A stretch of DNA of 64,000 bases from Hydnum rufescens UP504 (lineage: Eukaryota; Basidiomycota; Agaricomycetes; Cantharellales; Hydnaceae). Position numbers and translations under genes: made by a program. Below are positions 3,510-56,587 of this stretch, piece after piece. Each line of letters begins with the position of its first letter. Within the stretch, counting starts at the first letter, position 1. The DNA is taken from contig MU129120.1 in assembly GCA_014904985.1 (NCBI GenBank), forward strand, positions 36,590 to 100,589, written 5' to 3'. The notes beneath the pieces were generated by a model. The model searched no databases and was not told the origin of the DNA. It saw only the letters and a program-made list of their open reading frames with translations.

Positions 3510-3574
3510 TGACAGTAGTGGGGACAGAAGAGAGTGGACAGAAACATGATGGGGTGACTTCCGTACCATCATAG

Positions 3575-36235: not shown

Positions 36236-36470
36236 TTATTCAGTTGTGGCCGGGGCTTCTGCCTCACCGGCTGTCATATTGGCATCTTTGTATTCCGCAA
36301 AGGCATTGAGGTCAATATAATCGGAATCTGGCTGGGTGGCACTTTCGGACACAGCAGTGTTGGCAGCATCTTGTGGGGATGTGGCAGGAACTGATATAGG
36401 GGCTGCTGGTGCAGCAGGACCTGGGCCTGTGGGCATACTGGGGCCAGCAGGGCTACTGCCAAGGGCAGGC
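36236..36470 (-). CDS. Low-complexity Pro/Ala-rich open frame cut by the first element
   Basis: The minus strand is open from the element boundary to a stop at 36236 and encodes PAGPSMPTGPGPAAPAAP, then an acidic part with DSDYIDLNAFAEYKD. The frame runs without a stop out of the element terminus, so the original upstream part is presumably displaced by the insertion. It could be the end of a retrotransposon or host protein; no family is recognised. Confidence 0.3.
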
Positions 36471-36947
36471 TGGTCAGTCACATAGGGGACCTAATTTAGG
36501 TACCACTTTCGGGGCAGAAAATGGTACCTAATAGGTCCCCCAGACCTTACGGCCGAAATCAGGCTATTCCAATTCAGTTTTTGGGCCATCTATCGGCCAA
36601 TCCATGGCTGTGCCAGATTATATATTTATTTACTATTATTTGTTTGCTATTTATTATTATTATTACTATTATTATATACATATTATACTATATACATATT
36701 ATCCCCCCCCCCCCGGGGTCTGCCACTACAGGGGGGGATGGTTTATTGCGGGTCATGCGCCCGCATATACCCACCATACCCTCTGCAGCAAGTGCAGTCG
36801 GGGGCCGGTTCCTTTTGGGCACTCCCTTGAGGGGTCGGTCTTCATTTGTGGGGGTCTTCATTTGTGGGGGTTCGTTCGTAATTATTGTTCGCCACGTCTC
36901 GTTCAGCCAGTTCTCCTTGGGGGCTCACGGGGATTCTGGTTCAGGAT

Positions 36948-37879
36948 CTAGAGAAATAAATAATAAAATATTAGTGCAACAGTAATGCAGCGCAAAAAGA
37001 GCAGCTTATGCTGCTCTTTTTGCGCCACAAGAATAAGAAATAAAAAAATAAAAGAAAACATACGTTATAGTACCCCACACCCGCTGCGGCGGTGTGGGGT
37101 ACTGAGGCCATGGGCTCTGGCTTGTACGTACGGCGGTTTGTACGGCAGTTCGTATGGGAGCTCGCATGGGTGCCCCGTCGTTCGGGTGTCGATAAGGGGG
37201 GTTACGGGGGGGGTTTGCGTTGGTATTCGTTTGCAGGGGATGTCGAAACCTACAGAATAAAACTTGTAAATTAGTTAAGAATTAAACACCATGCAAAAAG
37301 AGCAGCTTTCGCTGCTCTTTTTGCGTGGCTGTAGCTACTGGGCTGGGGACTTACCTTATATAGGACCACACACCCGCTGTGGCGGGTGTGTGGTTCCTGG
37401 GACCTCGTTTGGCGCGGTGCTGTATGTCGCATCGTTGGCATGGTATGCCGCGTTGTTGGCGCAGTACCGTAGGTCGCGTCGTTGGCATGTTGGCACGTTG
37501 CCGTATGTCGCATCGTTGGTGTGGTACTGTAGGTCATGTCGTTGGGGTGTTGGGGCGGGTTGTGTCATTGGCGCATTGCCGTAGGTCGCGTCGTTGGTGC
37601 GGTACCATAGGTCGCGTCATTGGGGTGTTGGCGCGTTGCCGTATGTCGTGTCGTTTGGTGTGCCTTTGCTTGGGGCATTGCTGTTTGGGCCCTCGTTTCG
37701 CGTGTTTTCGTTGTGCCTTGGACCCCAGGTCTCAATCTAGAAAAATACAAAATATGTTAGTAAAAAGGTTCAAAGGGGCACAAAAAGAGCAGCTTTCGCT
37801 GCTCTTTTTGCGCCGTTGTATCTACTAGGGGAAACACTCACCTTGTGACCACACCCCCGCAGCAGCGGGTGTGTGGTCG
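36948..37879 (-). repeat. Element 1 left arm: three intron-like units with hairpins
   Basis: Three minus-strand segments have intron signals: 36948-37063 (donor GTATGT, acceptor TCTCTAG), 37251-37353 (donor GTAAGT, acceptor TGTAG, CTAAT inside) and 37736-37842 (donor GTGAGT, TACTAAC, TTTTTCTAG). Each holds an AAAAAGAGCAGC..GCTGCTCTTTTT hairpin (36990-37025, about 37293-37326 and 37778-37812). Just upstream of each donor, in the exon-like part, is a GC-rich hairpin: 37071-37101, 37364-37393 and 37848-37879. The exon-like part 37354-37735 is a minisatellite whose minus-strand translation repeats NDATYG.AP-like units. Confidence 0.75.
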
Positions 37880-37947
37880 TGTGCTTGCCTTTCCAGACGG
37901 TTGCTTGTTTTGGTTGCGGAGATGTGAAGGAAGATGCAAACTCAATG

Positions 37948-38583
37948 CCGGCAATTGCCGGTATTTAAGAAGCACCCAGTGCTGACGCTACAAGCACAGT
38001 ACACATTAATAGTAAGCATGTAGATGCAAAATAAATACTATATAATAAATATTTGTCCAATAAAATTCTAAGAAGAAGAAGATAATGAGTCAGAGCTCAA
38101 TAAGGCGTGATATGGCTAATTGCAAAGTGGATTGGGCCATTTCTATGCATCAGAATTGGCCGAAATTTGAATATATTGATGGTATATATGTACTCTACAT
38201 GGACGACGAGTTATATTGGACGTTCTGGGCATTTTTCAATTTTTCACACCTTCAATTCCCTAAATAGGGAATTGAAGGCATGAAAAATTGAAAAATGCCC
38301 AGAACATCCAATATAACTCGTCGTCCATGTAGAGTGCATATATACCATCAATATATTCAAATTTCGGCCAATTCTGATGCATAGAAATGGCCCAACCCAC
38401 TTTGCAATTAGCCATATCATGCCTTATTGAGCTCTGACTCATTATCTTCTTCTTCTTAGAATTTTATTGGACAAATATTTATTATATAGTATTTATTTTG
38501 CATCTACATGCTTACTATTAATGTGTACTGTGCTTGTAGTGCCAGCACTTGGGCGCTTCTTGAGTATCGGCAGTTGCCGGCAT
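37948..38583. repeat. Central palindrome of element 1
   Basis: Two arms of about 315-320 bp are near-perfect inverted copies, with the centre in CCCTAAATAGGG (38258-38269). Within each arm, reading outward, a TATA-like TTATTATATAG precedes the segment that leads to the first exon-like unit by about 100 bp. The arms remain well matched although each carries private substitutions. The position between two outward-reading arms suggests a bidirectional promoter or an origin-like hairpin; neither is shown by sequence alone. Confidence 0.9.
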
Positions 38584-38651
38584 TGAATTTCGCAACTACA
38601 CAGCCACATCCTAAGGCAACACACACGACCACCACACGACCCCCGACCCCG

Positions 38652-40765
38652 TGACCACACCCCTGCTGCTGCGGGTGTGTGGTCATAAGGTAAGTTTCCA
38701 TTTTAGTAGGTACAACGGCGCAAAAAGAGTAGCGAAAGCTACTCTTTTTGCGCTGGTTTTAATTTCTTTACTAACAACTTTATTATTCTAGGTTATGGCT
38801 TTGTCCCAGGTGCCAACGAGGAGGCCCGACCTGCCACAAATGAGGACCTGCGGAGCAAGCCCCCCAGAACAACAAAGGAGACCGGCGAACAACAATGCCA
38901 AACGAAGGGACGAACCACACACCCACAGTAGCGGGTGTGTGGTTCTATACAAGGTATGTAATGTACCCCGCGCAAAAAGAGCAGCGACAGCTGCTCTTTT
39001 TGTGTCGCTTTTATTTTTTGAACTAATAATATTTTATTCTAGGTATCGCCACAAATGAACCCACGAAGCAAGCCAGAATCACAGCACCCCCACAAATGAT
39101 GCACCACATGAAGAGAACCACACACCCACTACTGCGGGTGTGTGGTTTTATACTCGGTATGTAATGTACCCCTGACAGTGCAAAAAGAGCAGCGAAAGCT
39201 GCTCTTTTTGCATCATTTTTCATTTTTTAACTAATAATTTTTCATTCTAGGTATCCTCACAAATGACGACCTGCGGAGCAAGCCCACCACACCCACAAGG
39301 GAGACTGGCGAACGACGACACACCACGAACCACACACCCGCAGTAGCGGGTGTGTGGTTCTATCTATGTATGTAACGCACCCCCGACGATGCAAAAGAGC
39401 AGTGAAAGCTGCTCTTTTTGTGTCGCTTTTAATTTTTTAACTAATGATTTCTTATTCTAGGTATTGTCACAAATGGAGACCCGCGAAGCAAGCCCCCCCA
39501 GAATGACAACACCCCCGCGAATGACGATGCACCACACGAAGAGAACCACACACCTGCAGTAGCGGGTGTGTGGTTCTATCTATGCAAGGTATGTAACACA
39601 CCCCTGACGATGCAAAAAGAGCAGCGAAAGCTGCTCTTTTTGCGTCACTTATAATTTTTTAACTAATGAGTTCTTATTCTAGGTATTGTCACAAATGGAG
39701 ACCCACGAAGCAAGCCCCCCCAGAACGACAACACTCCCGCGAATGATGACGCACCACACGAAGAGAACCACACACCTGCAGTAGCGGGTGTGTGGTTCTA
39801 TCTATGCAAGGTATGTAACACACCCCCGACGATGCAAAAAGAGCAGCGAAAGCTGCTCTTTTTGCGTCACTTATAATTTTTTAACTAATAGTTTTTTATT
39901 CTAGGTATCACCACAAGTGAAGACCCGCGAAGCGAGCCCCCCCGGAATGACAACATCGCCGTGAACAATGATGCACTGAACAAAGAGATGAACCACACAC
40001 CCGCAGTAGCGGGTGTGTGGTTCTATACCAGGTATGTAATGTAGTGCACCCCCAACAGCGCAAAAAGAGCTGCGAAGGCAGCTCTTTTTGCGTTGCTTTA
40101 ACTTTTACTAATCTAAAATTTTGTATTCTAGATCTTCCTTCCCCCCAAACGAGTACGTGCCCAAAAACCCCCGAACCCACTGTACGGAAAACCGGCAGTC
40201 GAGGGTACGCGACCCTGGGCAAAAACGAGTACCACACACCTGCCAATGCAGGTGTGTGGTACTACAAGGTATTTTTTTTTTAACTTTCTACATCTACAGT
40301 GATGCCAAAGGAGCAGCGCAAGCTGCTCCTCCAGCGTCACTTCGAATTTTTTTACTAACGTATGTTATCATTCCATTCTAGGATCAAATTTAAAGGTCCC
40401 GAAACGACGACAGAGAGCTGCAACCCCCGAATGACTTGCACAATGGTGAACCACCAAGCCACGCCCGCCCAAATGGCCACCAACGAGCCGGGCGAGCCCC
40501 CATCCAAGCCCCAAGGCAGAAATGCCCAGTACCACATAGCCCCCTCAGCGGGGTGTGGTCTTTTATTTTTATTTGCAAGTGGCGCAAAAAGAGCAGCGAT
40601 AGCTGCTCTTTTTGCGCTGCTTTGAATTTCCTCCTTACTGTTTTGCTGCCTGACACCCCAGCAACATGCCGCCTGAACCCGCATCTGAACACCGGACGAC
40701 CCCCCGTCCTAAGTCCTGAGGAAACAATGAATGGTACCACACACCTGCCCTAGTGGGTGTGTGGT
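38652..40765 (+). repeat. Element 1 right arm: eight intron-like units with hairpins
   Basis: Plus-strand intron-like segments: 38690-38791, 38954-39042, 39157-39250, 39368-39460, 39589-39682, 39811-39904, 40032-40131 and 40269-40381. Donors are GTAAGT or GTATGT, except GTATTT in the last; acceptors are TTCTAG; most have CTAAC or CTAAT 20-30 nt before the end. Each contains one hairpin of the AAAAGAGCAGC type. Each exon-like part (about 110-165 nt) ends in a hairpin of the ACCACACACC..GGTGTGTGGT type followed by a donor. Units from 39251 to 40031 are tandem duplicates with a period near 220 nt. A ninth, degenerate unit follows at 40533-40765. Confidence 0.78.
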
Positions 40766-41431
40766 ATGTTTTTTTAATTGAATTTTTAAATAAATAAATA
40801 CATTAGTTCATAAGAACAAAACACGAGACTGCCAAATGAAAACAGCCCCCACCTGGTGTATATAGTGATAATGATAATAAATAAATAACTATAAATGAAA
40901 CACCAGAGGGGGGAATATAATAATAATTACTGGTGATTATCCCCAATAAGCCCGCATGGCCCGCTGTCCTGCAAGTCTGAGATTCTCTCCAAGTCCCAGT
41001 TTCGGCCAATTTTCAGCCAATTTTCAGCCATTTCGGCCAATTCTGGTCCAGGAGGTGAAATCATAAAAATGGCCATTTCGGCCGGAATAGTGATGGGACC
41101 TACTTAGGTACCATTATCTGCCCCGGAAGTGGTACCTAACTAGGTAGGCTTAGATGACTGACCAAGGTGTGAACTCAACACCAGTGTGAGTTGAGGGGTG
41201 CATAAGTTTGTAGATACAACATCTAGGTGCTGGAAATATACACAGCAGGGGATATTTTAAAGCTATCTGACAATTTTTGAGCAGATTGGAAGAAGATTCT
41301 TAGGAATTCCAAAAAAGGAAATTTTGGGCTTCTCATGTGCATGAGTGTGACAAGGGGGAGGGGGTGGTGAGGTGTCATCCAGAAGAAGCTGAAACAGGAT
41401 TCCACAAAGGTCTTAGAGGTTCTGTGCCCCA

Positions 41432-41555
41432 GTACCAGATACACACTTCAAAAATTTCGCAACACTTTGGCCTCAGTGGGATTCAAACCAGGGTAGTACC
41501 AAAAGTCACCCCAAAGACAAACCCAGATCCCCAGCACACTACACAACTAAAATAG
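41432..41555 (-). repeat. Possible tRNA-derived short interspersed element
   Basis: On the minus strand a box-A-like TAGTGTGCTGGGGATCTGGG is followed about 50 nt later by GGTTTGAATCCC, which is the tRNA box B (GGTTCGAATCC) with one CpG-to-TpG change. No full cloverleaf can be drawn, so it is either a decayed tRNA or the head of a tRNA-derived SINE. The internal promoter boxes are the only support. Confidence 0.3.
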
Positions 41556-41796
41556 AAGGATCTAATTTCTTATGAATATAACTCCATCCTGATCCACTGC
41601 TGAGCTGCTGACACTATGTGGGTTTCCGGAAACTCATGTGCCTCAGTTTTTCTGAGGGGTTTATTGCATCAAATGGGTGGAACCTGAGTGGGTGGTCATG
41701 AGGCAGGGGGGATGCTGCATTGTTGGAGTGTGACATGTTATAAGTGGTGCCCATGGGACCACAGCAGCCATGACCTCAACCTCAGTGGTTCTGAGT

Positions 41797-42915
41797 TCAT
41801 CCTTGAGGTGGCTGTGCAATCTGGTTCGCAACCTGAGCAAAAGTGCTGAGGACAGGGGAGAGCATCTGCTGCATCAAGCTTGTATCTTCCTCCAACCAGG
41901 TAAGCTGAGGTGGTTGAGAGTAGGGTGAATGGGACTTGTGAGAGTGCAGGGTAGTGGCAGCAGGCCAGGTCTGAGGTGTCGGTGGGTGCTCATAGGACAT
42001 AGTTGCAATATAGTCCACAGATGTATTGGTGCTGAGGATGTCAGCAGTTTTGGAGCATAGGATGGCAGCCACATCATTAGCATGTGTGAATATGGCAAAG
42101 GAAGCAGGTTGTTCTGGGAAGCCATGACCATTGGCCTGTAGTGTGACATCATCAATGAGATCAACCATGAAGCTGATGATCTCACTCATGTTTTGGTGAG
42201 TGAGTGATGTGGGCCACACCCAGGCAGAGGTGTTGATAACATGCCATCCCATCTCCAAGGGAGTGGCAATGCTGGGTGTAGGAGCAGGGTTCATGTTGCC
42301 AATGGAGGTGGCAGCAAGGTGTAGTGCAGAGTCTATTTCAATTCCCTGATCAGCACCAGGGCTTGGACTCATATCTGGTGTCAGTCCAATGGGCTTTCTG
42401 TTTTTGGATGCTCCATCTGGGGAACTCAAATCTTGGAGTTTGTGAATGGGAACACCCGCTGCTTCCAGATAGTCTGAAAGGGGGGTTAGCTGTTGGACAA
42501 CTGGGTAAGGTTCCCATGTTTCTTGGCCAGTGCTCCATTGGACAAGGAACATGGCATCTTTTCCCTTGCCTTTGTGGGCCTGTATGGAAGATACAATGGT
42601 GGAGTCTGGCATGCCAAACCCCAGGACCTCATCCTGAGATTGGGCCAGGAAATGGATATCATCATTAGGGATACAGGGGTGGAGTTTTGAGGCATGGAAC
42701 CTGGGGTGGAGCCCACAGGCCCAAAGCTCTGGAGAAAGGTCCAGTTCAAAGGTGGTGTGTGGTACAATTTCACACGCAATTTGGAATGGTCCAATAAATT
42801 TCAGACTCAATTTACAGGCTCAGCCTTTAGGGAGTGTGAGGTTTTCTGTAGACAGAAAGACCAAATATCCAACTGTGAATGGGGCAGGGTGGTGATGTTT
42901 ATTTGCACTTTGAGT
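41797..42915 (-). pseudogene. Ty3/gypsy integrase C-terminus with chromo-like domain
   Basis: The minus strand reads AP-FTVGYLVFLSTENL, then LSLKFIGPFQIACEIV, LDLSPELWACGLHPRFHASK, LHPCIPNDDIHFLAQSQDE and AMFLVQWSTGQETWEPYPVV, the standard C-terminal end of fungal gypsy polyproteins: a GPF-containing integrase tail followed by a chromodomain-like fold that targets insertion to chromatin. A stop interrupts the first segment near 42815, and about 190 residues of non-conserved extension run to the stop at 41797. The catalytic integrase core, RNase H and reverse transcriptase are absent. The copy is not functional. Confidence 0.8.
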
Positions 42916-42929
42916 CTGCTTTACCACCT

Positions 42930-45900
42930 TGGTCAGTCATCTAAGCCTACCCAATTAGGTACCACTTCTGGGGCAGATAATGGACCTAACATGGTCCCAT
43001 CACTATTTCGGCTGAATTCGGTCATTTAGGTCTTTCCCTTTGAAATCTCTCACTCAAGCTTCTGGCTGAAAATTGGCTGAACATTGGCCAAAATGATGAC
43101 TTGGAGCTCAAGCCCTTGGAACACTTTAATTAAAGGCCATTATAGATGGCTTGAAGTCTGCCTTTAAGGAATCAAACTTAAACTTAGGAATTTTTAGATA
43201 TAATCAAACAGTTTTTAGAATATAACAGTACTATATACACAACATATCATAACCATATGGTACTGTTCAACTGCATCTTCAGAAAGAGTTGAGGAGAAGA
43301 AGGGAGGAGGAGCAAAACACTTGAGTGACACCTGAAGTCCTCAAACCCATCCAATCCCCCTGAAGATAATATTGGAAGAGATCCCAAACTGAGGGATTTC
43401 TAACAAGCCCAGTAGCCCCCCATAGTACACTGCTTCCATCAAACAGTGTGTGAATGACAAGGCAGATGAATGCCTTAAAGCCCCAACACTAGAAATGCTC
43501 CTGCACCTTGAGTTGTTATCAGATCGTCCTGAATGTACTGGCATTGGAATGCCACAATAAAGGCCTTTCTTCCGAGCCCATATATGAGGGGAGGGATGTA
43601 GATTACATGATGAAGTGAGGGTAGGAATGAAATATCAGCTCCAAAGTGTGTTGGGAGCTCCTTAAGGTGCAATTTGCCACAGATAGGGTCGCCAATGGTA
43701 CCATTGGAGAGCCCTAAATCACAGCTTTCGATAAAGCACAATATCATATGTTTTGGTGGGGATTTGGTGACAAAGAAGCAGAAGGAGTACAGAGGTGATG
43801 AGGAGATCACCACTCATCTCACTCCTGAGCATGTAGTTCACCTCCAATTGTCTCACAAATTGGACCAATGGAAAGCTGTGATTCACAGATCCATGTCAAG
43901 CCTATTATGAAGACAATTGGAAATGAACTCATGGAGATATGGGGGAAAAGGTGGGAAACAGGGCCATAGGAAAGACAAAGCCACTGTGCCCCCAATACCC
44001 CACCAAAATGCACGATATAGGGCTTGTTTGAAAGTGTTGATTTAGGGCTTTCCATTAGGCATATGAATGCAATGAATACAACAATTGTGCTACTCCCTGA
44101 AACCACACAGAGGTGATAATAGGGACATGGCAATGATTAAGGACCCTGGTATGCCACCCTCCAGAAACCTCACAGAGGTGGTTTCTGGGTGTTGCAGTGG
44201 TCCATCCCCCCCTCTTGTGCTACTCCCTGAAGCCACACAGAGGTGGAAACAACAGGGGAATGGTGACAGCTAAGGACTCTAGTATGCCACCCTCCAGAAA
44301 CCTCACAGAGGTGGTTTCTGGGTGTTGAAGTGGTCCATCCCCCCCCCCCTCTCCCCTAAAAATAAAGTTCTAATGCACCTATCACACCAAAACCATGCAG
44401 AGGTGGCTTATGGCAGTGATAGGAATTGACACCCAGAGGGGTGTCCCCAGACCTCCTGTTGATCAGGATGGAATGTGCTCAAGTCACTGTCCACTCAGAG
44501 GTGGACAGTGACCTTGTGCAATGTTTCCTAAGGCAGCAGCTATGAGGATTGATGCCAGATCAGTAAAAATCAAAAGATAGTGCAAAAGAGCTGCACTAGG
44601 CAGCTCTTTTGGCACCAATGTATATACTAGGTAGCATATACTCACCTTACTTCCACAGCCCAGGTGTTCTAGGGTGTGGTGTTGAGTTGGGGAATAAGGG
44701 TGGTGGTGAGTTGTGATGAAAGGCACAGTGGCTGTGCCCTTTCCTCACAACTCACCACCACCCTTATTCCCCAACTCAACACCACACCCTAGAACACCTG
44801 GGCTGTGGAAGTAAGGTGAGTATATGCTACCTAGTATATACATTGGTGCCAAAAGAGCTGCCTAGTGCAGCTCTTTTGCACTATCTTTTGATTTTTACTG
44901 ATCTGGCATCAATCCTCATAGCTGCTGCCTTAGGAAACATTGCACAAGGTCACTGTCCACCTCTGAGTGGACAGTGACTTGAGCACATTCCATCCTGATC
45001 AACAGGAGGTCTGGGGACACCCCTCTGGGTGTCAATTCCTATCACTGCCATAAGCCACCTCTGCATGGTTTGGTGTGATAGGTGCATTAGAACTTTATTT
45101 TTAGGGGAGAGGGGGGGGGGATGGACCACTGCAACACCCAGAAACCACCTCTGTGAGGTTTCTGGAGGGTGGCATACTAGAGTCCTTAGCTGTCACCATT
45201 CCCCTGTTGTTTCCACCTCTGTGTGGCTTCAGGGAGTAGCACAAGAGGGGGGGATGGACCACTGCAACACCCAGAAACCACCTCTGTGAGGTTTCTGGAG
45301 GGTGGCATACCAGGGTCCTTAATCATTGCCATGTCCCTATTATCACCTCTGTGTGGTTTCAGGGAGTAGCACAATTGTTGTATTCGTTGCGTTAATATGC
45401 CCGATGGAAAGCCCTGAATCAACACTTTCAAACAAGCCCTATATTGCGCATTTTGGTGGGGTATTGGGGGCACAGTGGCTTCATCTTTCCTATGGCCCTG
45501 TTTCCCACCTTTTCCCCCATATCTCCATGAGTTCATTTCCAATTGTCTTCATAATAGGCTTGACATGGAGCTGGGAATCACAGATTTCCATTGGTCCAAT
45601 TTGTGAGACAATTGGAGGTGAACTACATGCTCAGGAGTGAGATGAGTGGTGATCTCCTCATCACCTCTGTACTCCTCCTGCCTCTTCGTCACCAAATACC
45701 CACCAAAACATATGATATTGTGCTTTATCGAAAGCTGTGATTTAGGGCTTTCCAATGGTACCATTGGCGACCCTATCCATGGCGAATTGCACCTTAAGGA
45801 GCTCCCAACACACTTTGGAGCTGATATTTCATTCCTACCCTCACTTCATCATGTAATCTACATCCCTCCCCTCATATATGGTCTTGGAAGAAAGGCCTTT

Positions 45901-46483
45901 ATCGTGGCATTCCAATGCCAGTACATTCAGGACGATCTGATAACAACTCAAGGTGCAGGAGCATTTCTAGTGTTGGGGCTTTAAGGCATTCATCTGCCTT
46001 GTCATTCACACACTGTTTGATGGAAGCAGTGTACTATGGGGGGCTACTGGGCTTGATAGAAATCCCTCAGTTTGGGATCTCTTCCAATATTATCTTCAGG
46101 GGGATTGGATGGGTTTCACGACTTCAGGCCTCAAGTGTCCTTGCCCTTGCTTCTCCTCAACTTGTGGTTTCTGCCCTCCCCCTCACCTAGGGAAGCCTTG
46201 TAGATATTAGCTAGTTGATTTGTCCAAGTCCTCATTTGGGCAAATTTCAGTCAGGTCTTGCCTGAAGAGTTGAGGAAGAGACTTCAATAGAGCATACTGA
46301 AATGCCTGACACTGCCTGAAAAATGCCCAAAAAATGCCTGAAATAGCCCAGAATGGCTGTGAGCTAGTGAATTGAAATGAATGATTTCTGACCAAATTTG
46401 GCTGAAGGCCCTAGGAGACCTATTAGGTACCATTCTCTGCCCCAAAAGTGGTACCTATCTTAGGTCCCCTATATGACTGACCA
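42930..46483. mobile_element. Element 2: TIR-bounded long-palindrome element (3.55 kb)
   Basis: Bounded by TGGTCAGTCA (42930-42939) and TGACTGACCA (46474-46483), with the same subterminal GGTACC hairpins as element 1 (42955-43005 and 46405-46465). The left end is of the kind found at the right end of elements 1 and 3, so the copy is inverted relative to them. Instead of an array of short units the interior is one very long inverted repeat. CpG is nearly absent in most of it. Confidence 0.7.
43285..46165. repeat. Long inverted repeat, arms of about 1.44 kb
   Basis: The left arm (43285-44729) and right arm (44731-46165) are inverted copies around CACAGTGGCTGTG (centre about 44730). Each arm holds one outward intron-like unit (donor GTGAGT near 44646 and 44816; an AAAGAGCTGC..GCAGCTCTTT hairpin at about 44581-44616 and 44848-44883; CTTAG at the far end) and about six short hairpins with a shared CACAGAGGTGG core, for example 44160-44190, 44292-44322, 45138-45168 and 45268-45298. 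Open frames in the arms mirror each other. The arms differ at scattered sites, many of them CpG in one arm and TpG or CpA in the other. Confidence 0.92.
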
Positions 46484-46504
46484 GCCTGGTGTGGTTGTGG
46501 TCAT

Positions 46505-46557
46505 GTGCTGTTGCTGTTGCTGCTGCTGCCATTGCTGCTGCTGCTGCTGTTGTGTCA
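46505..46557. repeat. Interrupted (CTG)n trinucleotide tract
   Basis: GCTGTTGCTG and GCTGCTGCTG units with single-base interruptions. The same place in element 3 (52060-52165) has the complementary CAG tract, about twice as long. Confidence 0.9.
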
Positions 46558-46604
46558 TGGTCATGCGGTTGCATTTCTGTTGCTGGGTGTGGCTGTGTAG
46601 TTGT

Positions 46605-47232
46605 GAAATTCAATGCTGGCAATTGCCAATACTCAAGAAGTGCCCAAGTGCTGGTGCTGCAAACACAGTACACAATAGTAGCAAGCATGTATATTTAAAA
46701 TAAATACTTGTCCAGGAACACCTGAAGAAGGTGATGATAATGAGTCAGGGCCCAATAAGGCATGAGATAGCGAATTGCAGAGTGGATTGGGCCACTTCTA
46801 CACATCAGAATTGGCCCAAATTTAAATCTAGTAGTGTTATATATACACTCTACATGGGTGATTGATTATCTCAGATGATCCTCACATTTTTCAATTTTTC
46901 ACACCTTCAATTCCCTATTTAGGGAATTGAAGGCATGAAAAATTGAAAAATGTGAGGATCATCCAAGATAATCAATCACCCATGTAGAGTGTATATATAA
47001 CACTACTATATTTAAATTTGGGCCAATTCTGATGTGTAGAAGTGGCCCAATCCACTCTGCAATTCACCATCTCATGCCTTATTGGGCTCTGACTCATTAT
47101 CATCACCTTCTTCAGGTGTTCCTGGACAAATATTTATTATATAGTATTTATTTTAAATATACATGCTTGGTACTATTGTGTGCTGTGCTTGCAGTGCCAG
47201 CACTTGGGCACTTCTTGAGTATTGGCAATTGC
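46605..47232. repeat. Central palindrome of element 5
   Basis: Inverted arms of about 310 bp around CCCTATTTAGGG (46913-46924). It matches the central palindromes of elements 1 and 3 in sequence, with CpG sites mostly converted to TpG/CpA. TATA-like TTATTATATAG is kept in the right arm but changed in the left, which has lost the segment. Confidence 0.9.
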
Positions 47233-47274
47233 CAGTGTTGAATCTGCATCTTGCTTCCATCTCTGCAACCGCTG

Positions 47275-48631
47275 TAAGCAGGAAACTGTGGAAGAAACCA
47301 GCTACAGTCCGCGAAATGGAAACGAGGACAAAGAAGGGGGATCACGGGGCCAATCCGAACGTTAGGGTCCGAGGGAAGGAAGGGTCTTTGGACGGGTAGA
47401 ATTGTCCTGTATAGATGGAGCCTATCCAGACAATAAATGAAGGGGTTGTTAAATCAGAGAATCACACTCTAGGTCCTCCTCTTGAGAGCCTATCAGAAGT
47501 GTGATTAGTGGGGGTTGAGTTTTGGAATTTACCCTGACACCAGCAGCAGTTCAACTAGCTTTTCAACTGGGGATGGGGGGAAAGACGATAGAAATTCGCA
47601 TCTCCTGCACTTAATATACATCACAGAAAAATGATATGGTAACCGGCGGAAAGATGGGATTAAGGCGAAAATGAGGAAAAAGAAATCAAGTCAAAAGCTT
47701 CCAAACTGAAGGAGATATTCAATTAACAAGTGAGAATGGGAGAATATGGCTTAACCAAGGTATTCCTCCTCTTCTACTGGACCAAATCCCTTGAGGAATG
47801 GTGGAACTGGTCGTCCTAGATGTACCCTCCATCGGGCATAGGGTGCCGGAACCATAATTGCCTTTAGTAATCAGAAAAGCGGAGGTAAAAGTGAAATGAG
47901 CCATGAGGAGACTAAATTACAGGAGGCCGAGTTCTAATCCGCTCGTTTTGCCCTTGGTACCGTTCGATGCGGATTTTCAGCGTCTTTCCAGGGGTGGTTG
48001 TTCCCAACGAATCGGATAAAAACTGATGGAGTTATTCGCGAAATACTGAAGGATTGTGTGGAGCATGAGGTAAAATCGACCTGGAAGATGCAGTTCGCAT
48101 CCGATAAACGCGTGTGTGGTACCGTTAGACAGGTATTGATCGTAGCTTTCTGGGAGCTGTCTTGCCGAGTCGATCCGATCAAAAATGAGGGAGATATTCG
48201 CGAAATACTCCTTGAGAGCATTGGAATAGCCCCTATTCAACATGTGACAAGTCTGCGAGTCAAAGTGGGAGTCGTGTTACATAATCCAAGGTCAAATACC
48301 GCCCTTGAGGCATTTGGATACGCCAATAGTGATACAATAGGTGGACGAAAGTAAGCAAGTTGAATTGCTTTAGCCTGGTTGAACTGGCTTGGAAATAAGT
48401 ACAATTTAGATGGCCTGTTGAAGTGCCAAGGACGGACAAATAATTGTCTCGTATATAGGGTGGAGGAAAAGTATAAAGGACCACGGATCCTGGGATGTGA
48501 ATCCATACTATTTGATGGCCAGAGGAATAACGAGTGTGGATACGTGAGAAATACAGAAATATGGATTCGTTTGAGGAGGTAGTTGGGCCCGGATGAGGTA
48601 TGTACGTAGTGGGATTTTATCCCTCCAACAC
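47275..48631 (-). mobile_element. Solo-LTR-like insertion in element 5
   Basis: Comparison with the uninterrupted copy near 51300-51350 places an extra 1.36 kb here. On the minus strand it begins TGTTGGAGGGATAAAATCCC and ends CTTACA, with GCGG on both sides as a possible 4-bp target duplication. TG..CA ends and the TGTTGGAGGGATAAA start are typical of fungal LTRs. A TATA-like CTATATAC lies near 48458. No gag or pol is present. The inside (47940-48240) carries a 140-bp repeated block ending in ATTCGCGAAATACT, related to 59262-59720. Unlike its host element it retains CpG. Confidence 0.55.
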
Positions 48632-48649
48632 CGCAACAAGCAACCACCT

Positions 48650-49642
48650 GAAAAGGCAAGCGCATGACCATGCACCTGCTGCTGGGGGTGTGTGGTCACA
48701 AGGTGAGTGTTTTTTTTTAGTAGATACAATGGCACAAAAAGAGCAGTGAAAGCTGCTCTTTTTGCACTGCTTTGGAATTTTTTACTAATGCACCTTTATT
48801 TATTTTAGATTGAGGCCTCACCCAATGCACAATGAGAGCCCAAATGGGAACCCAATGCATGGGAATGTGACATGGCAGTGCAATGCACAGGAATGTGACA
48901 TGGCAGCACAATGTATGGCAATGTGACATGGCAGCACAGCATATGGCAATGCAACAGCAGCACAATGCATGGCAATGCAACAGCAGCACAATGCATGGCA
49001 ACATGACATGGCAGCATGATGCACAGCAATGCAACACAGCAATGTGCCAATGACATGATATATGGCACCATGCCAAACAAGGACATGACCACATCAAATG
49101 ATGTGCCAGGAATCACACACCTGCCACAGCAGGTGTGTGGTTCCATATCAGGTGAGTTCCTCCCCCCCACTGCCTACAGCCATGCAAAAAGAGCAGTGAA
49201 AGCTGCTCTTTTTGCATGTTCTTTAATTTTTAACTAATTTAAAAGTCATATCATCTAGGTCTCAAGTCTCTTTGCAAACAAATACCAATGAAAAACCCCC
49301 CACAACCCCACTTATTGATGCCTGAATGACAGGGCACAGAGAAGACCCATATGAATGGTCATATGGATGACCTGGAGTACACAGTCCCAGTACCCCACAC
49401 TCCTGCAGCAGGTGTGGGGTACTACAAAGGTATGTCTCTTTTATTTTATTTTATTTCTTATTCTTGTGGTGCAAAAAGAGCAGCATAGGCTGCTCTTTTT
49501 GCACTGCATTGCTGTTCTACTAACATTTCATCATTTATTTCTCTAGATTCTGAACCAGAACCCCCATGAGCCCCCAAGCAGAACCCACCAAATGAGATGT
49601 GGCAAACAATTACCATGAATGAAGCCCCACAAATGAAGACTG
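48650..49642 (+). repeat. Element 5 right arm: three intron-like units
   Basis: Intron-like segments 48703-48808 (GTGAGT..TTTTAG), 49152-49258 (GTGAGT..ATCTAG) and 49430-49546 (GTATGT..CTCTAG), with hairpins at about 48733-48767, 49183-49216 and 49470-49503. They correspond in order to the left arm of element 3 read in reverse. The exon-like part 48809-49151 is a minisatellite of about 21-30 bp units (CAATGTGACATGGCAGCA), in which every CpG of the element 3 copy appears as TpG or CpA. Confidence 0.75.
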
Positions 49643-49769
49643 ATGTTGGAGGGATAAATCCCTACACATCTGAGGCCAATTTTCCAATCAAACAAACAAA
49701 TTGATTGTCCATCTGATCCTTAATTTTCATATTGTTCATTCACTGGAGAAACAATCCAAATTCCCAGGC
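49643..49769 (+). mobile_element. LTR fragment
   Basis: Starts TGTTGGAGGGATAAATCCCT, the same start as the solo-LTR-like insertion above, and continues for about 125 bp to the terminus of element 3. It truncates the outer part of element 5. The far end is cut by element 3. Confidence 0.45.
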
Positions 49770-49947
49770 TGGTCAGTCACATAGGGGACCTAATTTAGGT
49801 ACCACTTTCAGGGCAGAAAATGGTACCTAAGAGGTCCCCCAGACCTTTCGGCCAAAATCAAGCCATTCTGATTCAGTTTTTTTGGCCATCTATCAGCCAA
49901 TCCATGGCTGTGCTAGATTATTTGTTTATTTACTATTGTTTGTTTAC

Positions 49948-49993
<46 letters not shown>

Positions 49994-50277
49994 TACTACT
50001 ATTATTATATACATATTACGCTATATACATATTATCCCCCCCCCTGGGGTTTACCACCACAGGGGGGGGCATAGTTCATGCAGGCCATGCACCTGCATAT
50101 ACCCACCACACCTGCCGCAGCGGGTGGGGTCCATATGCCCTGGCCAGGGTCGGTTCCATTTGGGCGCTCCCTCAAAGGGGTCGGTCTTCATTTGTGGGGC
50201 TTTGATCGCGGTAATTGTTTGCCGCGTCTCGTTTGGTGGGTTCTGCTTGGGGGCTTGCGGGGGTTCTGGTTCAGAAT

Positions 50278-51295
50278 CTAGAGAAATAAATGATGAAATG
50301 TTAGTAGAACAGCAATGCAGCACAAAAAGAGCAGCCTATGCTGCTCTTTTTGTGCCACAAGAATAAGAAATAAAAAAAATAAAAGAGACATACCTTTGTA
50401 GTACCCCACACCCACTGTGGGAGTATGGGGTACTGGGACTGTGTACTCCAGGTCATCCGTACGACTGGTCATACGGGTCTTCTCTGTGCCCCGTCGTTTG
50501 GGTGTCGATAAGTGGGGTTGCGGGGGGTTTTGCGTCGGTATTCGTTTGCAAAGAGACTCGAGACCTAGATGATACGACTTTTAAATTAGTTAAAAATTAA
50601 AGAACACGCAAAAAGAGCAGCTTTTGCTGCTCTTTTTGCGTGGCTGTAGGTAGTGGGGGGGAGGAACTCACCTGATATGGAACCACACACCCGCTGTGGC
50701 GGGTGTGTGATTCCTGGCACGTCATTTGATGCGGTCGCGTCCTCATTTGGCGCAGTGCTGTATATCGCGTCGTTGGGTTGCTGTGTCGCATTCCCGTGCA
50801 TCATGCTGCCATGTCATGTTGCCATGCATCGTGCTGTGGTCGTGTTGCCGTACGCTGTGCTGCTGTGTCGCATTGCTGTACGTTGCACTGCTGTGTCGCG
50901 TTCCCATGTGTCGCGCGGTGGTCGCGTTGCCGTACGCTGTGCTGCTGTGTCGCGTTGCTGTACGTTGCACTGCCGTGTCACATTCCCATGTGTCGCGCTG
51001 TGGTCGCGCTGTGGTTGCGTTGCTGTATGCTGTGCTGCCGTGTCGCGTTGCTGTACGTTGCGCTGCCATGTCGCGTTCCTGTGCATTGTGCTGCCGTGTC
51101 ACATTCCCATGCATCGGGTTCCCATTTGGGCTCTCATTGTGAGGCCTCAATCTATAATAAATAAAGGCGCGTTAGTAAAAAAATTCCAAAGCAGCGCAAA
51201 AAGAGCAGCTTTCGCTGCTCTTTTTGCGCCATTGTATCTACTAAAAAAAATACTCACCTTGTGACCACACACCCGCAGAGGCAGGTGCGTGGTCG
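50278..51295 (-). repeat. Element 3 left arm: three intron-like units
   Basis: Minus-strand intron-like segments 50278-50393 (GTATGT..TCTCTAG), 50565-50671 (GTGAGT..ATCTAG, CTAAT) and 51152-51257 (GTGAGT..TATAG), with hairpins at about 50320-50355, 50608-50641 and 51196-51230. Exon-end hairpins are at 50401-50433, 50682-50712 and 51263-51295. The exon-like part 50672-51151 is a minisatellite whose minus-strand frame repeats QRTATRHSSTAYGNATT-like units without a stop over most of its length. Confidence 0.78.
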
Positions 51296-51359
51296 TGTGG
51301 TTGCCTTTTCGGGCAGTTGCTTGTTGTGGTTGCGGAGATGGAAGCAAGATGCAGATTCA

Positions 51360-51995
51360 ACACCGGCAATTGCCGATACTCAAGAAGCGCCCAAGCGCTG
51401 GCGCTGCAAGCACAGTACACAATAGTACCAAGCATGTAAATTATAAATAAATACTATATAATAAAAAATTGTCCAGGAAAACCCGAAGAAGAGGATGGTA
51501 ATGAGTCAGAGGTCAATAAGGCATGAGATGGCTAATTACAGAGTGGATTGGGCCACTTCTACGCATCAGAATTGGCCCAAATTTGAATATAGTAGTGTTA
51601 TATATACGCTCTACATGGGCGATTGATTATCTCGGACAATAATCACATTTTTCAATTTTTCATGCCTTCAATTCCCTATTTAGGGAATTGAAGGCGTGAA
51701 AAATTGAAAAATGCGATTATCATCCGAGATAATCAATCGCCCATGTAGGGTGTATATATACCATTACTATATTTAAATTTGGGCCAATTCTGATGTGTAG
51801 AAGTGGCCCAATCCACTCTGCAATTAGCCATCTCATGCCTTATTGACCTCTGACTCATTATCATTGGCTTCTTCGGGTTTTCCTGGGCAAATATTTATTA
51901 TATAGTATTTATTTTAAATATACATGCTTGTTCCTATTGTGTACTGTGCTTGCAGTGCCAGCGCTTGGGCGCTTCTCGAGTGTCGGCAATTGCTG
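51360..51995. repeat. Central palindrome of element 3
   Basis: Inverted arms of about 315 bp around CCCTATTTAGGG (51674-51685), closely similar to those of elements 1 and 5. Each arm has an outward TATA-like sequence and leads into the first exon-like unit of that side. Confidence 0.92.
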
Positions 51996-52059
51996 GCATT
52001 GAATTTCGCAACTACACAGCCACACCCAGCAACAGAAATGTGACCGCACGACCACGACA

Positions 52060-52087
52060 CAACAGCAGCAGCAACAGCAGCAGCAAT

Positions 52088-52142
<55 letters not shown>

Positions 52143-52165
52143 GCAATGGCAGCAGCAGCAACGGC
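52060..52165. repeat. (CAG)n trinucleotide tract
   Basis: Over 30 CAG units with CAA, AAT and GGC interruptions. It lies in the first exon-like part of the right arm, just before its hairpin at 52190-52220. Depending on frame it would encode Gln, Ser or Ala runs. Confidence 0.95.
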
Positions 52166-52189
52166 AACAGTGCATGACCACGACCATGC

Positions 52190-53625
52190 GACCACACACC
52201 CGCTGATGTGGGTGTGTGGTCATAAGGTAAGTTTTATCTCAATAGATACAATAGCGCAAAAAGAGTAGCGCAAGCTACTCTTTTTGCACTGCTTTCAATT
52301 CTTCTACTAACATACTTTTATTATTCCAGGTCATAGCCTGATCCCAGGTACCGAATGAAACCCTGCCAAACGAACCAAACTAATGACACCACGCTAAATG
52401 AACCCCACCGAATGAAATCCCGCTGAGCAAAACCACGCCAAACGACAATGCAATACAACAAGGATGCCAGCGATGGGGATGGGCCAATCAAGCGGCTCAA
52501 TGACACCATGCCCAACGACACTGCCGACATCACGCCCCACAGAACCACGCGCCCCGCCAAAAGAATGAGTGCCAAACAAAACCCAGGAACAAGGATGCAC
52601 GACACAGGACCACGGAACCCCCCAGACAAACCACACACCTGCCGAAGCGGGTGTGTGGTAATCTTAAGATAAGTTTTTATTGCGCCAAAGGAGCAGCGTA
52701 CACTGCTCCTTTCGCATAGGTTTTTCTTTCTTTTTTACTAACATATTATTCATTTTTTATTATAATTTCTAGGTTAACGAGTCTGCGCCCGACAACCCCC
52801 AAACCCACCTGAGCCCCGTACGAAAACCCGATAGAGGAAGGCATGCAACCGCGGTACGAACGAGTACCACACCTGCTTCGGCGGGTGTGGTACTACAAGG
52901 TAAGTAAAGCTGTACACTCCCAATGGCGCAAAAAGAGCAGCAAATGCTGCTCTTTTTGCGCCAGTTTTAATTTTCTAACTAATACATCCATCATTCTAGG
53001 CTCTCGCTTTAAATGAAGACCCGTGAAAGGGAACTGCCCCCCCCCCCCCGAAACAATAGCCGCCGAAACCCACGACGACAACACGCTGAACGAAGACATG
53101 AAACAATGCATGAACCACACATCCGCTACGGCGGGTGTGTGGTTCTATACAAGGTAAGTAACCTCGTGTACCCACAACGGCATAAAAAGAGCAGCAGATG
53201 CTGCTCTTTTTACACTGGTTTTAATTTTTTACTAACACATTATTTATTATTCTAGGTACCGCCTTACCACAAACACCAAAATGAAGACCCACCAAAGGAA
53301 CCCCCCCCCCAGGGAATGACAACGCCCCTGCCACACGGAAACCAACAATGTGACCCACCAAAATGAGTGCCAAATGAAACCTGCTGAACTGAGGAGTGAA
53401 ACCAGGCCAGACCACACACCTGCTACCGCGGGTGTGCCCACCCCAACAGACACTAGGGACCAGTCCAAACGACTGGCCCAACAGTGAACTGCCAAGCCAC
53501 GGCCCCCCTTCCCTTGAAATGGCCAGCAACGAGCCCGCCGAGTCCCGATGAAGAAGCGGAAGGCACCACACACCCGCTAGGCCGGGTGTGTGGTGCTACT
53601 AGGTTGTTTTTTTTTTTTTAAATTT
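52190..53625 (+). repeat. Element 3 right arm: intron-like units with hairpins
   Basis: Intron-like segments 52227-52329 (GTAAGT..TTCCAG), a second ending at 52772 whose donor reads ATAAGT instead of GTAAGT (52669), 52900-52999 (GTAAGT..TTCTAG) and 53154-53255 (GTAAGT..TTCTAG). Hairpins are at 52257-52289 (GAGTAGC/GCTACTC stem), 52684-52716 (GGAGCAG/CTGCTCC stem), 52925-52960 and 53180-53215. Exon-end hairpins precede each donor. The exon-like parts have stops in all frames. Confidence 0.75.
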
Positions 53626-53955
53626 CTACGGACAGTGCCACACCCGCTTGAGCAGGTGTGGTGCTACTTAGTTTTTTTTTAAGTTTCTACAGATGGTACC
53701 ACACACCTGCCCAAGCAGGTGTGTGCTACTAAGTAGTTTTTTTATTTTTTATTTTTATTTTATTTTTAAGGACGGTACCACACACCTGCCCATGTGGGTG
53801 TGTGGTGCTACTAAGTAGTTTTGTTATTTTTTTATTTTTAAGGACAGTACCACACACCCGCCCATGCGGGTGTGTGGTGCTACTAAGTAGTTTTTTTATT
53901 TTATTTCTACAGACAGTACCACACCCGCCCAAGCGGGTGTGGTATTTTTTTACTA
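53626..53955. repeat. Tandem array of five exon-end hairpins
   Basis: Five copies, about 60-70 bp apart, of a hairpin of the ACCACACACC..GGTGTGTGGT type, each followed by GCTACTAAGTAG-like text, a T-rich run and TTTCTACAGA or TAAGGACA. Donor sites are lost and the middle hairpin of the intron is missing, as though the units had been shortened. Stem lengths differ between copies but both sides match each other. Confidence 0.88.
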
Positions 53956-54326
53956 ATTGAATTTTTAAATAAATAAATAAATAAGTCCTAATTGGGCAAG
54001 TGCTCAACATGCAAATGGGTAACCAGAAAGCCCGCCTAGGCAGGCCTCAAATATATGTATAATAAGTGATAATAAATAAATAATTATAAATGAACACTAC
54101 TATCACCAATAAGTCCATATGGCCTGCTGTCCTGCAAGTCTGAGATTCTCTAAGTCCCAGTTTCGGCCAATTTTCAGCCAATTTTCGGCCATTTCGGCCA
54201 ATTCTTGGTCTAGAAGGTGCAGGCCATAAAATGGCCATTTCGGCCGGAATAGTGATGGGACCTACTTAGGTACCATTATCTGCCCCAAAAGTGGTACCTA
54301 ACTAGGTAGGCTTAGATGACTGACCA

Positions 54327-55905
54327 AGGTGATGCAACACACGACAACGTACCAAACGATGCGACACATGGCAATGCGCCAAACAATGTGACACACGGCA
54401 ACACGCCAAATGAGGATGTGACCACACTAAATAAGGGCCCCAGGAACCACACACCTGCCATGGCGGGTGTGTGGTCCTATATAAGGTGAGTCCCTACCCC
54501 CCCAGTAGCTACAGCCATGCAAAAAGAGCAGTGAAAGCTGCTCTTTTTGCGTGGTGTTTAATTCTTAACTAACTTACAACCTTTTATTCTATTGTAGGTC
54601 TTCACTTCTCGTGCCAACGAATACTGATGCAAAACCCCCCGTAACCCCACCTATCGATGCCCGAATGACAGGACCTGGGGGGACCCGTCCAAACCGCCGT
54701 ACATATGAGCCGGAGTACGGCCCCAGTACCCCACACCCGCTGCAGCGGGTGTGAGGTACTACAAAGTAAGTTTTATTTTTTTATTTCTTATTCTTGTGGT
54801 GCAAAAAGAGCAGCATACACTGCTCTTTTTGTGTTGCATTCATTTTCAACTAACCCATTATTATTTCTCTAGATCCTGGCCAGAACCCACGCGAACGCCC
54901 AACCACAAACCCACGGAATGACATGCTGCGAACGAAACCCACAAATGACCCCCCACAAACGAAAACCGCAGGGAGGACGTACAAACCGCGGTATGTACGA
55001 GCTGGAGTACACGACCCCAGTACCCCACACCTGCTGCAGTGGGTGTGGGGTACTACAAAGTAAGTTTTATTTTCTTTATTTCTTATTCTTGTGGTGCAAA
55101 AAGAGCAGCATACGCTGCTCTTTTTGTGTTGCATTCATTTTCAACTAACCTATTATTATTTCTCTAGATCCTGGCCAGAACCCGCGCGAATGCCCAACTA
55201 CAAACCCATGGAACGACACGCTGCAAACGAAACCCACAAATGACCCACCACAAACGAAAACCACAGGGAGGACCCATACAACCCGCCATACGAGCCAGAG
55301 TACAGGACCCCAGTACCCCGCACCCGCTGCAGCGGGTGTGGGGTACTGCAAGGTATGTTTTGTTTTTGTTTTTATTTTGTATTCTTGTGGCACAAAAAGA
55401 GCAGCATAAGCTGCTCTTTTTGTGCTGCATTACTGTTCTGCTAATGTTTCATTTTAAATTTCTCTAGATCCTGAACCAGAACCCGCATACACCCCCAACC
55501 ACAAACTCGCTGAATGACATGCTGCAAATGAAAACCACGAACAAGCCCCCACAAACGAAAACCGCTCCCTCGAGGGAGCACCCAAATGGACCCGGCCCCG
55601 ACCAGGGCATATGAACCCCACCCAGGTGTGGTGGGTATATGCAGGTGCGTGACCTGCAGGAACCATACCCCCCCTGTGGTGGCAGACCCCGGGGGGGATA
55701 ATATGTATATAGCATAATGTATATAATAATAGTAGTAATAATAATAATAAATAGTGAACAAATAATAATAATAAAAATATAATCTAGCACAGCCATGGAT
55801 TGGCCGAAATGGCCATATTTTGGCCGTACTGTATGGGGGACCTATTAGGTACCATTTTCTGCCCCAAAAATGGTACCTAAATTAGGTCCCTCATGTGACT
55901 GACCA
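54327..55905 (+). mobile_element. Element 4: half element, four intron-like units
   Basis: Only the half that corresponds to the left arm of elements 1 and 3 is present, inverted, ending in TGACTGACCA (55896-55905) with its subterminal hairpin (55833-55890) and (TTA)n zone. Intron-like segments are 54486-54597, 54766-54872, 55060-55167 and 55353-55467, each with a hairpin and CTAAC/CTAAT near the end. The two middle units (54766-55059 and 55060-55352) are tandem duplicates. The left boundary coincides with the end of element 3. Confidence 0.68.
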
Positions 55906-56587
55906 GGCTGGCCTGGAAACAAATCCTCCCCCTGATTACTAAGCAGGTGAGGGTGGACTTGAAAGATCGAGAGCTCAAGTGGAAAGGCAGGAAGGATGTA
56001 ATAGGAACGTCCTTATCCTTGTTGGCAACCCTGCTCTTTTATAGTATTTACAAGAAGGTAGAGAAACTACAGGAAAATAGGAGAATCTTTAGATACCAGT
56101 GCTGTAGTACTGGTGAGAAAAGAGATGAGTATTCTCGGTGAGTAGCGCTCAGCGGCACAGCATTACTAACAGGCATTCGAGTGGAATCTCTCCCTGATTA
56201 CTAAGTGGGTGAGGATGAATTCGGATTGGTGAGACTTAGAGTAGCTCAGGTGAACAAGTGATGGCAGAAAGCACCCAAGAAGAAGTCCTTAGTATTTTTG
56301 TGAGCTTAAGCTCGGATCCAGGAGGTAGATTGGCAAGGTTGTTGGCATAGCCTCACAGGGGTCACTTGTCTCCGTCTCCAAATAGGGTTCTCAGTTGATT
56401 TCGTAATGGACACTTGCCGCAGACCCCAGTCACTGTGGGGCCCAGTACATTGATTATTTATCCTTATTGCAGACAGCAAAGGCAAGAGCATAATTCATGG
56501 ATGGGCTCAGCAGTTGCCAAGTTTGGCGTCCCATCAGCGGGAATTGGAACCTATCGCTCGCTAGGTCCCCAAATTCTCCACATTTTT
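55906..56587. other. Spacer, nothing recognised
   Basis: No gene found. A direct pair CCTGATTACTAAG (55932 and 56192) with different flanks hints at duplicated ends of some older insertion. Confidence 0.35.

Follow-up and report, generated by a model that had tools for sequence, protein, structure and literature searches.

Non-autonomous DNA transposons with terminal inverted repeats (TIRs), whether like miniature inverted-repeat transposable elements or larger derivatives of this type, resemble in their TIRs, their target site duplications (TSDs) of 7-8 bp, their hundreds of copies and the lack of a visible transposase of their own the family of elements that we describe here from the basidiomycete Hydnum rufescens UP504. 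The family was studied in a window of 64,000 nucleotides (assembly GCA_014904985.1, contig MU129120.1, positions 36,590 to 100,589 of the forward strand), where it fills about positions 36471-55905; coordinates below are those of the window unless a contig or locus is named. A second likeness, in that introns are repeated and have inverted repeats or hairpins inside them, is shared with introners, fungal introner-like elements and the stwintrons of Hypoxylaceae. The symmetrical stwintrons are the nearest hairpin introns known to us (PMC8469720), and a survey gives the Pezizomycotina as the one non-aquatic group among eight with introners (PMC9860276). In these accounts introners and stwintrons are single introns at new gene positions, whereas the Hydnum family has many introns per transposon and none alone in the DNA sampled. 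What separates it from the non-autonomous TIR transposons is an interior in which RNA-type units are ordered over kilobases and point outward from a palindromic centre, the conservation of splice sites and of stems, and two end types, CAGGC and CACCT. We know of no kind of transposon that the interior of the family fits. Literature listings on introners of basidiomycetes, on transposons with hairpin introns or palindromes and on the repeats of Cantharellales contained no account of it, and its motif letters turned up only in five unrelated papers.

The family is probably a non-autonomous TIR DNA transposon that carries two divergent, intron-rich genes for non-coding RNA, in which the hairpins would secure splicing. 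The elements would be moved in trans by a transposase encoded elsewhere, and the two genes, with a common palindromic centre, would run outward to both ends, each as a row of units in which an exon with a terminal hairpin at most 14 nt before the donor (the limit set in our caller) is followed by an intron of about 105 nt with a hairpin before its branch site. We infer that RNA is produced and spliced and, with much less confidence, that the element gains from being spliced: by offering many well-spliced introns it could escape a surveillance linked to splicing.

The elements, pieces and terminal regions in the window are the following.
36466..41169, element E1 (4.70 kb), A end CAGGC-TGGTCAGTCA at left, B end (reverse complement of CACCT-TGGTCAGTCA) at right
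36466..36560, plus strand, A terminal region with subterminal palindrome (DNA fold z -5.7)
41070..41169, minus strand, B terminal region with subterminal palindrome (DNA fold z -3.2)
42925..46488, element E4 (3.56 kb), ends as in E1, interior different, one unit per arm
46489..49643, piece of an older element, central palindrome and right arm, with an LTR-like (long terminal repeat-like) interruption at about 47280-48635
49765..54331, element E3 (4.57 kb), A end at left, B end at right
54332..55910, plus strand, right part of another element, four units toward the A-type end at 55896-55910

The sequence TGGTCAGTCA matches the window seven times against 0.16 expected, a number reached in none of 100 shuffles, and occurs in two main end types, CAGGC-TGGTCAGTCA (A) and CACCT-TGGTCAGTCA (B), with inverted terminal repeats at both ends of the elements. 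The sequence-only reading had already described at least four copies with these common ends; the shared sequence stands, with the true ends 5 nt further out (CAGGC or CACCT precedes it), and three copies (E1, E4 and E3) have both ends, the other two (46489-49643 and 54332-55910) being pieces. In the genome searched (63.2 Mb in 539 contigs), the end patterns gave 315 and 319 matches, 634 together, against 1 and 1 for the reversed-pattern control. When up to two mismatches were allowed, the related end CACCTTGGTCAGCCACTTGGGCTGACC gave 62 and 65 against a control of 0. The end pattern TGGTCAGTCATNTGANNGG had no match and does not fit the ends. Exact TSDs of 7-8 bp were found at 7 of 22 sampled genomic end pairs (four of 8 bp and three of 7 bp), one of the seven in low-complexity sequence. 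Because of the 634 end matches and these exact duplications, the family is, as far as sequence can tell, a DNA transposon; that it is mobile had been supposed at the outset.

The ends of hAT elements have the form YARNG, which CAGGC and CACCT do not fit. Foldback and other palindrome-centred transposons carry large internal inverted repeats, as the Hydnum family does; in the latter the palindrome occupies the centre and is short compared with the divergent, unit-bearing arms. In the KDZ group (Kyakuja, Dileera, Zisupton), Zisupton generates TSDs of 8 bp (PMC12730594); of the seven duplications seen here, four are of 8 bp and three of 7 bp. KDZ genes are abundant in the Hydnum genome, with at least 154 matches; among the matches listed, none lies between the facing pairs of ends listed on contigs C1-C28, nor was a KDZ domain found in the element open reading frames (ORFs) that were scanned.

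The interior of the elements is made of exon-intron units. Our strict caller demands an exon hairpin, a donor (GTAAGT, GTGAGT or GTATGT) within 14 nt after it, an intron hairpin, CTRAY and YAG, and the units listed come from it unless another remark is given.
36948..37103, minus strand, unit of E1: exon hairpin 37069-37103, intron 36948-37063
37250..37394, minus strand, unit of E1: exon hairpin 37365-37394, intron 37250-37354
37737..37878, minus strand, unit of E1: exon hairpin 37847-37878, intron 37737-37841
38651..38791, plus strand, unit of E1: exon hairpin 38651-38686, intron 38690-38791
38912..39042, plus strand, unit of E1: exon hairpin 38912-38945, intron 38954-39042
39114..39250, plus strand, unit of E1: exon hairpin 39114-39149, intron 39157-39250
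39327..39460, plus strand, unit of E1: exon hairpin 39327-39360, intron 39368-39460
39542..39682, plus strand, unit of E1: exon hairpin 39542-39577, intron 39589-39682
39764..39904, plus strand, unit of E1: exon hairpin 39764-39799, intron 39811-39904
39990..40131, plus strand, unit of E1: exon hairpin 39990-40023, intron 40032-40131; intron stem GAGCTGC/GCAGCTC, a compensated variant
44540..44679, minus strand, unit of E4: exon hairpin 44653-44679, intron 44540-44645
44782..44921, plus strand, unit of E4: exon hairpin 44782-44808, intron 44816-44921
48665..48808, plus strand, unit of the older piece: exon hairpin 48665-48698, intron 48703-48808
49109..49258, plus strand, unit of the older piece: exon hairpin 49109-49144, intron 49152-49258
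49389..49546, plus strand, unit of the older piece: exon hairpin 49389-49423, intron 49430-49546
50278..50434, minus strand, unit of E3: exon hairpin 50400-50434, intron 50278-50393
50565..50714, minus strand, unit of E3: exon hairpin 50679-50714, intron 50565-50671
51152..51294, minus strand, unit of E3: exon hairpin 51263-51294, intron 51152-51257
52190..52329, plus strand, unit of E3: exon hairpin 52190-52221, intron 52227-52329
52863..52999, plus strand, unit of E3: exon hairpin 52863-52894, intron 52900-52999
53112..53255, plus strand, unit of E3: exon hairpin 53112-53145, intron 53154-53255
53560..53945, plus strand, tandem exon-type hairpins without intron hairpins, close to the outer end of the right arm of E3
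54446..54597, plus strand, unit of the 54332-55910 piece: exon hairpin 54446-54475, intron 54486-54597
54725..54872, plus strand, unit of the 54332-55910 piece: exon hairpin 54725-54760, intron 54766-54872
55019..55167, plus strand, unit of the 54332-55910 piece: exon hairpin 55019-55054, intron 55060-55167
55311..55467, plus strand, unit of the 54332-55910 piece: exon hairpin 55311-55348, intron 55353-55467

The 25 complete units all lie in 36471-55905: the caller gave no unit elsewhere in the window (44.6 kb), nor in any of 20 dinucleotide shuffles of the region. The sequence-only reading had counted about 22 such introns of 90-117 nt and about 28 intron hairpins; the called introns measure 89-117 nt and the intron hairpins of GAGCAGC type number 27, so that its picture of hairpin exons joined to hairpin introns is borne out. 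All 25 units have a listed donor, CTRAY and YAG because the caller requires these signals. A test independent of the splice sites started from the 85 perfect hairpins with enough flanking sequence, with 170 windows shifted by 125-150 nt as controls: a donor together with the branch/acceptor pattern was present in one orientation at 54 of the 85 and in both orientations at none, and the remaining 31 lacked one or both signals by the same rule; the shifted windows contained no donor, eight acceptor patterns and no case of both. Genome-wide, there are 3507 places with the perfect intron hairpin, AAAGAGCAGC-N4-GCTGCTCTTT, and 1007 with the perfect exon hairpin, CACACACCCGC-N4-GCGGGTGTGTG; the controls for both gave 0. 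In a viral collection, the hairpin pattern was found at one place each in five contigs.

Two traits of the family go beyond the earlier description and make the structure stranger than first described: the central palindrome and the outward polarity of the units. In nine elements with an identified centre, five of which (L104-L108) had been chosen because their ends carry a TSD, all 61 complete units face outward, which implies two divergent transcripts. The centres seen as such in the window are the following.
37975..38552, central palindrome of E1, arms of 288 nt, 97% complementary
46696..47141, central palindrome of the 46.5-49.6 kb piece, arms of 222 nt, 95% complementary
51355..52004, central palindrome of E3, arms of 324 nt, 91% complementary

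The central palindrome is presumed to be a two-way promoter, and its mirror-copy arms would then provide one promoter type and one leader common to both transcripts. Comparing 26 arms from 13 centres, we found that the closest relative of an arm was the partner arm of its own element in 20 cases (identity 0.74-0.99 within an element; mean 0.78 and maximum 0.97 between elements), so the arms are either kept alike within an element or frequently made anew. The arms of E4 pair over 43326-44361/45098-46133 at 97% and over 44390-44723/44738-45071 (334 nt) at 100%, in an element nearly free of CpG (observed/expected ratio 0.09). Full complementarity over 334 nt of arm in spite of the near loss of CpG suggests that homogenisation came after that loss, so that the palindrome of E4 probably owes its present form to copying or conversion later than the decay of CpG. 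Homogenised palindromes of this kind offer a test case for how transposons keep long palindromes alike.

The hairpins themselves show signs of selection at the level of RNA. From 100 complete units, 77 were picked as diverse and 67 aligned, ten having been removed by hand, among them an E4 unit and one at a transposon end; RNAalifold predicts both hairpins from the 67, and 20 of the 28 predicted pairs are changed on both sides in at least one sequence. Conservation was measured by one-way projection of features between elements, in 12 non-independent comparisons that were not limited to features called in both copies. Mismatches of non-CpG type amounted per site to 0.059 in the exon stem and 0.052 in the intron stem, as compared to 0.101 at splice sites, 0.231 in other intron sequence, 0.175 in the exon body and 0.136 in the rest of the element, the stems thus varying 3-4-fold less than the adjoining sequence. 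With all mismatches counted, the stems (0.102 and 0.106) were 2.6-2.7 times lower than the exon body (0.262) and other intron sequence (0.282). A palindrome kept as DNA would give equal numbers of G.U and A.C pairs and an RNA stem tolerates G.U, so that an excess of G.U on the sense strand is a sign of selection on RNA. Counted in 119 units along the predicted sense strand, with a detection that favours neither kind of pair, exon stems had G.U:A.C ratios of 33:10 in young copies (CpG observed/expected of at least 0.75), 24:13 in middle ones and 17:23 in old ones (young versus old, Fisher p = 0.002), and intron stems 22:3. A cluster bootstrap over 36 clusters placed the G.U share at 0.62-0.88 for young exons and 0.50-0.72 for all exons. 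This dependence on the age of the copies fits selection while an element is mobile and decay after its insertion, and the pattern as a whole suggests that the hairpins are under selection favouring pairing in sense-strand RNA. We consider this evidence good for sequence alone; it comes from one genome and from related copies.

What the hairpins would do in splicing can be proposed from the predicted folds. In the four units folded, both hairpins form in all, with z of -6.6 to -8.7 relative to shuffles. The intron hairpin spans about 26-44 nt of the intron of about 105 nt, and short distances from donor to branch are typical of short fungal introns. By taking these nucleotides out, the intron hairpin would bring the donor-to-branch distance to a similar value; we propose, tentatively and at somewhat less than even chances, that the donor is marked by the exon hairpin while the one in the intron shortens this distance, so that both secure splicing. 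A further suggestion, which we hold to be unlikely, is that well-spliced introns shield the transcripts of the element from a silencing triggered by poorly spliced or intronless RNA. It is made by analogy to two systems that tie splicing or introns to the silencing of mobile DNA: in Cryptococcus, SCANR channels transcripts into RNA interference when suboptimal splicing signals cause them to stall in spliceosomes (PMC7763443), and in human cells introns protect against HUSH (PMC8770142). SCANR hits transcripts with poor signals and HUSH intronless ones, whereas the Hydnum elements have many strong-looking introns, as an escape would require.

Several observations weigh against the readings given so far. 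No TSD was found at 15 of the 22 sampled end pairs (one of them has a 7-mer with one mismatch), nor at the three two-ended elements of the window, E1, E4 and E3; we guess that such pairs consist of wrongly paired ends or result from exchange between copies. Among 80 unit candidates in the nine elements used for polarity, 19 are incomplete, and at least five of these lie on the inward strand. The copies are related, so that the G.U:A.C counts are not independent; with a 15-bp stem setting the intron counts lose their bias (14:15, 15:12 and 10:11), and with a setting of 3-6-nt loops they come to 10:4 (p = 0.18). In the predicted folds the donor is taken up in an additional short helix, and plainly so in three of the four units; the idea of an exposed donor was not borne out, and the chances that we give to the role in splicing were slightly reduced for this reason. 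In 17 arms of nine elements spliced in silico, the longest ORF exceeded the shuffled median in 14 and the shuffled 95% limit in three, namely the right arm of E1 (141 versus 138 amino acids), the left arm of L106 (128 versus 118) and the left arm of L108 (223 versus 147); low-complexity repeats may explain this excess. Finally, no transposase was recognised between ends, be it in the matches listed for contigs C1-C28, the scanned ORFs, the loci L076 and L077/L078 or 5 kb taken from a 13-kb span. Like KDZ, the MULE and hAT families have matches in the genome, and no listed match of the three lies between the facing ends listed on C1-C28.

The candidates considered as autonomous copies were each set aside. 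L076, a KDZ locus with a long open frame, has a longest inverted repeat of 23 nt; in the longer spans L077/L078 a transposase was not recognised between the ends; and a 5-kb slice of the 13-kb span consists of nested copies. An ORF-bearing neighbour of an array on contig C2 (L079/L083), considered as a partner, gave no Pfam family for four of its ORF pieces, and its far side reads N.

The rows of introns might alternatively be what remains of a many-exon transposase gene, multiplied by tandem duplication in a decayed coding transposon. Exons and introns with good splice sites are expected of the remains of a gene, tandem copies exist, and the longest ORFs of the spliced arms exceed shuffles as just described; this is nonetheless improbable, since the exons are, on the sequence evidence, without a conserved reading frame. 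Indels between exon copies are multiples of three in 29 of 86 cases, which is the chance expectation, internal exon lengths modulo 3 are distributed 16/12/12 and thus without phase, and the longest ORF stays inside the shuffled 95% limit in 14 of the 17 arms. Furthermore, what is conserved is the stems and not the exon bodies, both arms follow the same plan, and the ten ORFs scanned among the 38 listed stop-to-stop ORFs gave no Pfam match above cut-off and two weak ones below. A different explanation would place the function in DNA: a chromatin protein or a transposase would bind to the palindromes as repeated sites, and the presence of splice signals would be incidental. It draws on the near-perfect DNA palindromes formed by both hairpins and on the palindromic ends and centre, and we judge it quite improbable: donor and acceptor accompany the perfect hairpins in one orientation only, with complete units facing outward, the stems co-vary instead of keeping one sequence, and the excess of G.U over A.C in young copies is strand-specific, which is not expected of a DNA palindrome.

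Stems of about 12-20 bp, the length found in the units, are short as substrates of Dicer. This speaks against the idea, which we find about as improbable as that of a decayed coding transposon, that exon and intron hairpins or the central palindrome are precursors of small RNAs acting on host genes or on the element. Thousands of stable hairpins are at hand and the central arms of 222-324 nt would give long double-stranded RNA on read-through, but transcription of the arms is predicted to run outward and not across the centre, and Rfam has no match above its gathering score in the window. The sequence-only reading had raised a mobile system that hides in or produces introns or small structured RNAs. 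In an introner system, hairpin introns would copy themselves into genes and make new introns; in its favour, fungal introner-like elements likewise have inverted repeats and a stable structure (PMC8469720), and many introners resemble non-autonomous transposons (PMC9860276). The sample on contigs C1-C2 did not bear out a dispersal of introns into genes, and we see very little chance for an introner system. Of 50 perfect intron hairpins listed there, 43 lay in the stretches fetched and none of these stands alone: 42 have a second perfect hairpin no more than 1.5 kb away, and the remaining one (C2:7608) has a decayed unit on either side. The seven outside the fetched stretches (C1:373 kb, C2:160 kb and C2:642-643 kb) each have a listed neighbour within 600 nt. 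In addition, hundreds to thousands of bases separate the introns from the transposon ends, which are not at splice sites.

If a transposon with a divergent pair of non-coding RNA genes is the right reading and its RNAs are made and spliced, the Hydnum genome would hold a natural library of thousands of introns with a hairpin-flanked donor, strand-specific selection and no evident protein. The natural stem variants could then help to show what RNA structure does at the 5' splice site, and the question whether mobile elements use introns to pass as self would become testable in a fungus. A bolder version, which we regard as rather doubtful, would see here a class of mobile elements without protein that lives by splicing: a two-way palindromic promoter would drive two long non-coding RNAs made of self-structured modules and posing as an intron-rich gene to RNA surveillance, structure would enforce every splicing step, and tandem copying would add modules.

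Other ends and other repeats accompany the family. Two arrays on contig C2, L080 (C2:297200-300000) and L079 (C2:6300-9300), terminate in CACCT[T/C]GGTCAGCCACTTGGGCTGACC, an end type with 127 matches in the genome; among the matches listed, a few such ends are close to, yet outside, KDZ matches. At L046 (C1:87000-95999), positions 1900-6130 of the locus form an array with a palindromic centre and hairpin introns and no TGGTCAGTCA end within 9 kb; this is perhaps a more distant subfamily with other ends. Pieces resembling LTRs and starting with TGTTGGAGGGATAAA interrupt or flank elements in the window (about 47280-48635, and 49644-49760) and also at L042 and L050, which suggests insertion of an LTR retrotransposon family into the elements. 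The A-end region of L108 (243-800) contains several hundred bases of an ATT/ATA-type repeat, and other copies have similar, shorter runs.

Around the elements of the window, a piece of a Tf2/Gypsy-like polyprotein (41797-42819, minus strand; an SH3_Tf2-1 match below cut-off) ends about 100 nt to the left of E4. One host-like protein encoded in the window has its best hit in Hydnum rufescens, at 49% identity over 72%. An ORF at 57773-58519, just beyond the last end at 55910, gives weak matches, below cut-offs, to the KDZ-associated cysteine clusters CxC1/CxC2. Tandem repeats of about 137 and 152 nt, at 56579-57223, adjoin this KDZ-like ORF.

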